64,000 nucleotides of DNA from Paractinoplanes bogorensis (lineage in GTDB: Bacteria; Actinomycetota; Actinomycetes; Mycobacteriales; Micromonosporaceae): contig NZ_JAHKKG010000006.1 of assembly GCF_018829635.1 (NCBI RefSeq), positions 620,001 through 684,000 of the forward strand, in the 5' to 3' direction. The number at the start of each line of letters is the position of its first letter. The stretch's first letter is position 1. The position numbers and the translations under genes are program-made. The notes beneath the pieces are model-generated. The model saw nothing but the letters and a program-made list of their open reading frames with translations, made no database searches and was not told the DNA's origin. This document shows positions 22,293 through 24,804 of this stretch, piece after piece.

Positions 22293-22904
22293 TTAGTCGA
22301 CCAGGGCCACGTACAGCGGCGACCCGAGCAGCACCCGCTCGCCGTCCGGTCCGGGCTCGTCGAGCAGCCGTTTGGCCACGAATTCCATTGTCTGCTCAGG
22401 ACCGCGAAGAGCATCAGTCGTTTCCCGTACGGCCGCAGGCGCCTCGATGCCGTCGACCCGTGTGATGCCGTCGAGCAGGGACGGCAGCATGGACCGCCCG
22501 ATCGGAAGCGGCTGCGGTTCGGGGCCGGGTGGCGTCCCGAAGACGTGCGCGCGCGACCCGCCCAGCCCGAGCACGGTCTTGCCCGCGCGCCCGCCGAAGT
22601 AGACCATCGGGAACCCGTCGGCGCCCACGGTCGGCCCCCAGCGCAACGGCATCAGCCCACCGAAGAACTGCCCCGGCTCCTCGACGGTCCCGAGGTCGCC
22701 GTAGTCGTTCAGGTAGCGCACAACCTGATCGAGCCGGGCCGTGCGCTCGGCCCCGGCCAGCGTTTCGGCACCCCGCTTGGCGGTCAGGAACTTGAGCCCG
22801 AGCCCGACCTCCGAGGTGCGTTTGCGCAGAGCCTCGGGCTTGATCTGCTGCAGCAGCATCTCGACCTTGGCGTCACTGATGTAGACGAAATACCGGAACG
22901 ACAT
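22293..22904 (-). CDS. Conserved hypothetical protein (DUF7019-like)
   Basis: Protein of 203 residues; ATG 22904 has AAGGGG six bases upstream, better than an in-frame GTG farther up. Starts SFRYFVYISDAKVEMLLQQI and contains GRAGKTVLGLGGSRAHVFG and EQTMEFVAKRLLDEP...VLLGSPLYVALVD. I recall a similar actinobacterial family (DUF7019/SAVMC3_10250-type) with the same start and end, but its function is unknown. Soluble, no signal peptide. Confidence 0.75.
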   Translation of the reverse strand: MSFRYFVYISDAKVEMLLQQIKPEALRKRTSEVGLGLKFLTAKRGAETLAGAERTARLDQVVRYLNDYGDLGTVEEPGQFFGGLMPLRWGPTVGADGFPMVYFGGRAGKTVLGLGGSRAHVFGTPPGPEPQPLPIGRSMLPSLLDGITRVDGIEAPAAVRETTDALRGPEQTMEFVAKRLLDEPGPDGERVLLGSPLYVALVD

Positions 22905-23051
22905 GCATCCCCTTCCGCGGACCTCCATCGTCCCATCCGCGATCCAGTTTTTGTCCAGGGCCGGTCCAGGCTTCGGCCGCCCACCGAGCGCCCCGCCCGC
23001 GACGCCCGTACTGCCCGGTGTCGATCCATCACCCCCCGGTCGGAGGACCCC

Positions 23052-23723: not shown

Positions 23724-23870
23724 GGCTGGTTCCCTTCCGGCGACTCGGTAGCCCGGCACACGCCTTCAGTGTCCTCCGTCGATGCCGGGACCGGCACCCC
23801 CTTCATGCGTGTCCGGACGGAGACCGTCTCTGAGGATTTCCGGTGGAGACAAGCGCCACCACGGAATCGG

Positions 23871-23899
23871 TTGCCGTGGGCGGCGGGCGTTGCGATGCT
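23871..23899 (+). promoter_or_regulatory. Candidate promoter of riboswitch-controlled exporter
   Basis: TTGCCG (23871-23876), 17 bases, then GATGCT (23894-23899). Transcription would start some 15-20 bases before the riboswitch core. A 6-bp hairpin GAGTCC/GGACTC lies at 23908-23923. Boxes are weak; assignment is by position. Confidence 0.35.
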
Positions 23900-23923
23900 G
23901 GTGGGGTGAGTCCGGACGGACTC

Positions 23924-23965
23924 CCGGACGAGCGGTGCCGTACCCGGTCAGCGACAAGACGGCGC
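23924..23965 (+). ncRNA. Guanidine-III (ykkC-III) riboswitch
   Basis: The segment CCGGACGAG...GTGCCGTACCCGGTCAG.GACAAGACGGCGC follows the conserved guanidine-III aptamer as I know it from Thermobifida fusca, with only an inserted base or two and the same two pairing halves (CCGG with CCGG; GCGCC/GGCGC-type helix forming the pseudoknot). It ends 15 bases before the ATG of a Gdx-type exporter, and the ribosome site AGGAG (23970-23974) directly follows, so ligand binding should expose translation. Confidence 0.88.
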
Positions 23966-23980
23966 TAACAGGAGACTGTC

Positions 23981-24295
23981 ATGTCCTGGCTTGTTCTTAT
24001 CGCGTCCGGTGTGCTCGAGGCCGTCTGGGCCACTGCCCTCGGCAAGTCTGAAGGGTTCACCCGGGTTCAGCCCACCGTCATCTTCGGGGTGGCCATCGTG
24101 GCCAGCATGGGTGGGCTCGCCTTCGCCATGCGTGATCTGCCCGTCGGCACCGCCTATGCCGTGTGGGTCGGTGTCGGTGCGGTGCTGACCGTGGCCTACG
24201 CCATGATCACCGGGGCCGAATCTGTTTCGGTGGTGAAGATTCTGCTGCTCACCGGCATCATCGGCTGTGTGGCCGGCCTCAAGTTCCTGCACTGA
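23981..24295 (+). CDS. gdx: SMR-family guanidinium exporter (Gdx/SugE type)
   Basis: Protein of 104 residues with four helices. The essential Glu is in SGVLEAVWATALGKSEGF (Glu13), and GTAYAVWVGVGAV matches the Gdx/SugE signature rather than EmrE-type multidrug pumps. It works as an antiparallel dimer exchanging guanidinium for protons in the cytoplasmic membrane. The guanidine-III riboswitch upstream strongly supports guanidinium as substrate. Ribosome site AGGAGA precedes the ATG by six bases. Confidence 0.93.
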   Translation: MSWLVLIASGVLEAVWATALGKSEGFTRVQPTVIFGVAIVASMGGLAFAMRDLPVGTAYAVWVGVGAVLTVAYAMITGAESVSVVKILLLTGIIGCVAGLKFLH

Positions 24296-24351
24296 GCTTG
24301 ACCTGATCGAGCAGAATGGGACGGATCCGGGCACCGGCGGAAGGGCGGCTC

Positions 24352-24804
24352 ATGATCGCGAGGCGGATCGCCACGGCTGTGGCCACGCTGTTGGCCCTGG
24401 CCGGTGCGGGTGCGTGCGGCAGCGCCCCGGCCCCGGCCGGCGACGCGCGCCGGCTGGAACCGGCCGCGATCGCGCCCGGCGCTCCCGCCGCCCGGCCGGT
24501 GGCGCGTGCGGTTGTGGCGGCGGCTCCGGGCGTACGGAACATGCCCGCGGCTCTCCGCCTGCCGCCGGGCAGTCAGGTGACCGGCCTGTCCGACCGTGAG
24601 TCGGGCGCCTCGTTCACGCTGACCGCGCCGGATTCCGCGGCCGTGCTCGCGTTCTTCCGCAGTGAGCTTCCGCGCGGCTTCACGATTGTGGCCGACCGCA
24701 CCGACCACGGCGCCACCAGCCTCTCGTTCCGCGACTCGGGCGCCTGGGCCGGCACGATCTTCGCCACCGCCCAGCGGGTCACCGTGGCCGTGCGGCGGGT
24801 CTAG
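24352..24804 (+). CDS. Putative lipoprotein, 150 residues
   Basis: Starts MIARRIATAVATLLALAGAGAC with an atypical lipobox ending at Cys22. An Ala/Pro-rich linker reaches residue ~60, then a compact domain LPPGSQVTGLSDRESGASFTLTAPDSAAVLAFFRSELPRGFTIVADR...GTIFATAQRVTVAV. No family recognised. An in-frame ATG 12 codons earlier is possible but would spoil the signal. It converges on the aldehyde dehydrogenase gene. Confidence 0.75.
   Translation: MIARRIATAVATLLALAGAGACGSAPAPAGDARRLEPAAIAPGAPAARPVARAVVAAAPGVRNMPAALRLPPGSQVTGLSDRESGASFTLTAPDSAAVLAFFRSELPRGFTIVADRTDHGATSLSFRDSGAWAGTIFATAQRVTVAVRRV

Follow-up and report, generated by a model that had tools for sequence, protein, structure and literature searches.

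The window, a 64,000-nucleotide stretch of the Paractinoplanes bogorensis genome, carries on its plus strand a Guanidine-III (ykkC-III) riboswitch aptamer at 23905-23968 and, starting 12 nt after the aptamer ends, gdx (23981-24295), a gene for a 104-amino-acid protein assigned to the guanidinium exporters of the small multidrug resistance (SMR) family. A Shine-Dalgarno motif, AGGAG, is read from the sequence at 23970-23974, 6 nt 5' of the start codon. The next open reading frame on the same strand (24316-24804) begins 20 nt 3' of gdx, encodes a lipoprotein-like product of 162 amino acids that has no Pfam or NCBIfam match, and might be co-transcribed with gdx. On the minus strand, 22293-22928 encodes an uncharacterised protein of the DUF7019 / SAVMC3_10250 family.

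The aptamer was identified by running cmscan with Rfam 15 over the whole window, which gave a full-length match to RF01763 (model positions 1-67; 67 bits, E 1.2e-11, cut-off 36 bits), with core positions agreeing with the consensus, and returned nothing else above threshold. Across the 40 contigs (10.19 Mb) of the complete genome no second guanidine-III copy exceeded the cut-off, the runner-up scoring 25.1 bits, and no guanidine-I riboswitch above the cut-off was found there. The pseudoknot is formed by two CCGG strands, at 23924-23927 and 23944-23947, and stem P2 by GUGCCGU at 23935-23941 with ACGGCGC at 23959-23965. The conserved core strand GACAAGAC lies at 23953-23960. The aptamer core placed by the earlier note at 23924-23965 corresponds exactly to pseudoknot plus P2, and its proposal of a ykkC-III aptamer, placed just 5' of a ribosome site, was borne out by the Rfam covariance scan it had called for. 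The original validation of guanidine-III is said to be the work of Sherlock and Breaker in 2017.

The pairing of these elements was followed in a set of 59 leaders, made up of 58 from other Actinomycetota and that of the window. All four pseudoknot pairs form in 59/59 leaders, as CCGG/CCGG, GCGG/CCGC, TCGG/CCGA or CCCG/CGGG, with compensatory changes from CG to GC, CG to TA and GC to CG. As expected of a family member, the pseudoknot joins a strand 5' of ACGAG with a strand 3' of GUAC, with covariation. Among 28 distinct combinations the pseudoknot was paired in 112 of 112 cells, a value reached by none of 2000 shuffles, and P2 in 175 of 196 cells compared with a shuffle maximum of 155 (2000 shuffles). 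A second set, drawn from named genomes and overlapping the first in part (L113/G477, L131/G183), had all four pairs in 64 of 67 leaders, including the further form CCTG/CAGG. A covariance score below threshold and loss of the pseudoknot in homologous leaders had been named beforehand as findings that would speak against the aptamer; the score was well above, and since the pseudoknot pairs throughout the first set with compensatory changes, no such loss was seen.

The hairpin at 23908-23923 is P1, a standard part of the guanidine-III family. It consists of GAGUCC (23908-23913) and GGACUC (23918-23923) around a GGAC loop and occupies Rfam model positions 6-20. Of 121 distinct relatives, 77 % have a stem of 5 bp or longer at this place, compared with 16 % of shuffles. 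The small hairpin that the earlier note set upstream of the aptamer therefore exists, but it is not an extra element. No unusual structure was detected 5' of the aptamer in 23871-23904 (fold z-score +0.66), and 23840-23905 folded no better than shuffled sequence. Compared with the RF01763 family, the window has the same sequence, P1, P2 and pseudoknot, the same site just 5' of the ribosome site, an SMR target and an Actinobacterial host; no difference was found, its P1 of 6 bp with a 4-nt loop being within the range of relatives.

The product of 23981-24295 matched the Pfam Small Multidrug Resistance family (PF00893) at 71.9 bits against a cut-off of 23.7. Its best NCBIfam model was the SugE equivalog NF008512, with 92.5 bits against a cut-off of 126, and for this reason the equivalog label is not claimed and the protein is assigned only to the Gdx subtype of SMR. 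The SMR subtypes are similar in sequence and NCBIfam titles the SugE model quaternary ammonium efflux, so an exporter of quaternary ammonium compounds (Qac) rather than of guanidinium was considered. That assignment is highly unlikely, however, given that 6wk5 is the top PDB match (E 1.7e-18), ahead of EmrE at 5e-8 or weaker, and that the gene sits under a guanidine aptamer. The entry 6wk5 is the guanidinium exporter Gdx-Clo, and for Gdx the residues E13, W16, S42, W62, a Tyr switch and a GXG fulcrum have been named (PMC9574504). All are present in the translation, as the central glutamate E13, the hydrogen-bond stack W16/S42/W62, the Tyr switch Y59 and G64-V65-G66, and this complete Gdx binding site also argues against a Qac exporter. 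The protein shares with Gdx-Clo (PDB 6wk5, 6wk8, 6wk9) its length, E13/W16/S42/Y59/W62, the GXG fulcrum and the N-terminal sequence, but Gdx-Clo comes from another phylum (Clostridiales) and the similarity is moderate. The SugE/Gdx identification made in the earlier note thus holds at the level of family, closest structural relative and key residues. Three further SMR genes above the cut-off occur in the genome, one single and one adjacent pair, and none of these three lies close to a guanidine-III match above the cut-off.

The arrangement is widespread among relatives. Guanidine-III was found above the cut-off in 140 of 201 sampled Micromonosporaceae genomes and in 42 of 396 genomes sampled from the phylum. 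Among the 80 nearest Gdx orthologues retrieved from GTDB species genomes, 70 have guanidine-III 5' of the gene, and in 68 of those 70 the aptamer ends 7-21 nt before the start codon. The window differs from other guanidine-III/gdx loci of Actinomycetota, such as that of Actinoplanes sp. TFC3 (L131), by ordinary sequence drift only; the aptamer and the gene are the same and the spacing is near-identical, within the same 7-21 nt. Guanidine-III occurs mainly in Actinobacteria, where its partners are efflux proteins and metabolic enzymes and where guanidine-dependent control of SMR genes is a function of the class (PMC12186494).

Other genes follow the aptamer in some relatives. In three leaders from other genera of Micromonosporaceae, a membrane protein of the CBU_0592 family (83-85 amino acids) is encoded directly 3' of guanidine-III, replacing Gdx (L018:1582-1830, L020:1573-1827 and L029:1583-1834), with NF047864 scores of 55.2, 40.6 and 43.5 bits, respectively, against a cut-off of 25; the same type of arrangement was recognised by eye in L019 and L025. 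No mention of this family was found in the literature searched, and its members are candidates for an uncharacterised guanidine-linked gene. In L037, from a neighbouring family of Actinomycetota, guanidine-III is followed by a gene for an arginase/agmatinase-family enzyme (1577-2725; Pfam Arginase, 256 bits) that is plausibly a guanidinase, and L048 and L049 appeared similar by eye. The first gene after the aptamer encodes an Sm_multidrug_ex-like protein, scoring below the cut-off, in L060, and in L021 a product of about 292 amino acids whose first 81 residues have no Pfam match. About 340 nt separate the aptamer from the matched downstream Gdx gene in L162 and L169, an interval that probably holds a further gene, perhaps that of a paired SMR protein.

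The locus is a canonical guanidine-III riboswitch switching on a Gdx guanidinium exporter (probability about 0.95, applying to the identification of these two elements). Guanidinium binding by the aptamer and guanidinium transport by Gdx are carried over from the known families. By analogy with these, accumulating guanidinium would stabilise the leader in its P2/pseudoknot fold, translation of the exporter gene would start once the aptamer is folded, and a dual-topology Gdx dimer would export guanidinium against protons. Exporters of the Gdx type are antiporters that exchange two protons for one guanidinium. Specificity variants are known for ykkC-type classes, and a variant of guanidine-IV has been reported (PMC9788692). 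No evidence for an aptamer variant with altered ligand specificity was seen at this locus, where the core positions fit the consensus and the downstream gene is gdx, and such a variant is very improbable here.

How the folded aptamer of this canonical riboswitch may act on the gene was approached with folding programs that ignore the pseudoknot. In the resulting minimum-energy fold of the window leader, the 3' strand of the aptamer pairs with the gene start. Apart from one mismatch, the core strand GACAAGAC is the complement of GUC-AUG-UC at 23978-23985, so that it is proposed as an anti-start strand and the start region as its putative masked site. The duplex between the aptamer 3' segment and the start region was calculated at -15.8 kcal/mol; 77 gene starts of the same genome, sampled as controls from the window and a further 400 kb of its contig, averaged -9.1. 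With P2 enforced and the core left open, the start region of the window went from a predicted unpaired probability of 0.20 to one of 0.79, and across 30 near leaders the median rose from 0.24 to 0.54, with control starts on the same aptamers at 0.52; about a third of these leaders lacked a clear pairing advantage. Among 88 distinct short leaders, 47 have GUC at positions -3 to -1, compared with 4 of the 77 control genes (Fisher p 2.4e-12), a pattern that was spotted in the first leader set and then counted, among leaders related by descent and with few riboswitch-free Gdx genes among the controls. No other position from -15 onwards showed enrichment of GUC, and the named set taken by itself has it immediately 5' of the start codon in 33 of 68 leaders.

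We infer translational control at this locus, as is also predicted for the class (PMC12186494). The scan for promoters and terminators around the locus returned nothing, sigma-70 consensus scans being weak in this GC-rich group, and as no terminator was found there is no sign of transcriptional control. For the class as a whole, regulation is predicted to act through a more accessible Shine-Dalgarno sequence, and guanidine-III also shields the mRNA from RNase E (PMC12186494). It is quite possible, though short of an even chance, that the same riboswitch works here mainly by one of these routes and not through the start codon. The window fold agrees with this to the extent that its minimum-energy structure also pairs a few bases of AGGAG. 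Against it, when the aptamer was folded the predicted accessibility of the Shine-Dalgarno sequence showed no increase (mean 0.49 before, 0.40 after), whereas that of the start codon went up (0.35 to 0.53). This folding gave no support to masking of the Shine-Dalgarno sequence, and the start codon is the more likely masked element in these models. The ribosome-site exposure design of the earlier note thus agrees with the published class prediction in its translational nature, but folding does not support the Shine-Dalgarno sequence as the site that is masked.

Masking of the start codon is put forward tentatively, as a mechanism that may apply to short-leader guanidine-III members in general, in which the conserved GACAAGAC would double as an anti-start strand against a conserved GUC-AUG-UC and block the start codon when guanidine is absent. 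At this locus, GACAAGAC would pair with GUC-AUG-UC and hide the start codon without ligand; once ligand is bound, P2 would hold part of the GACAAGAC strand and leave the start codon free. The proposal is held at this strength because of the post hoc pattern, the shared ancestry of the leaders, the small number of controls and the third of leaders without an advantage.

The combination of riboswitch and Gdx is of an already known kind. The riboswitch class, its distribution in Actinobacteria and its association with SMR genes are already in the literature, and most relatives have the aptamer, so that the locus is real but ordinary, one more clean example of a well-documented system of guanidine detoxification. 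What is mildly new is the testable proposal that short-leader members of the family may shut off translation by masking the start codon.
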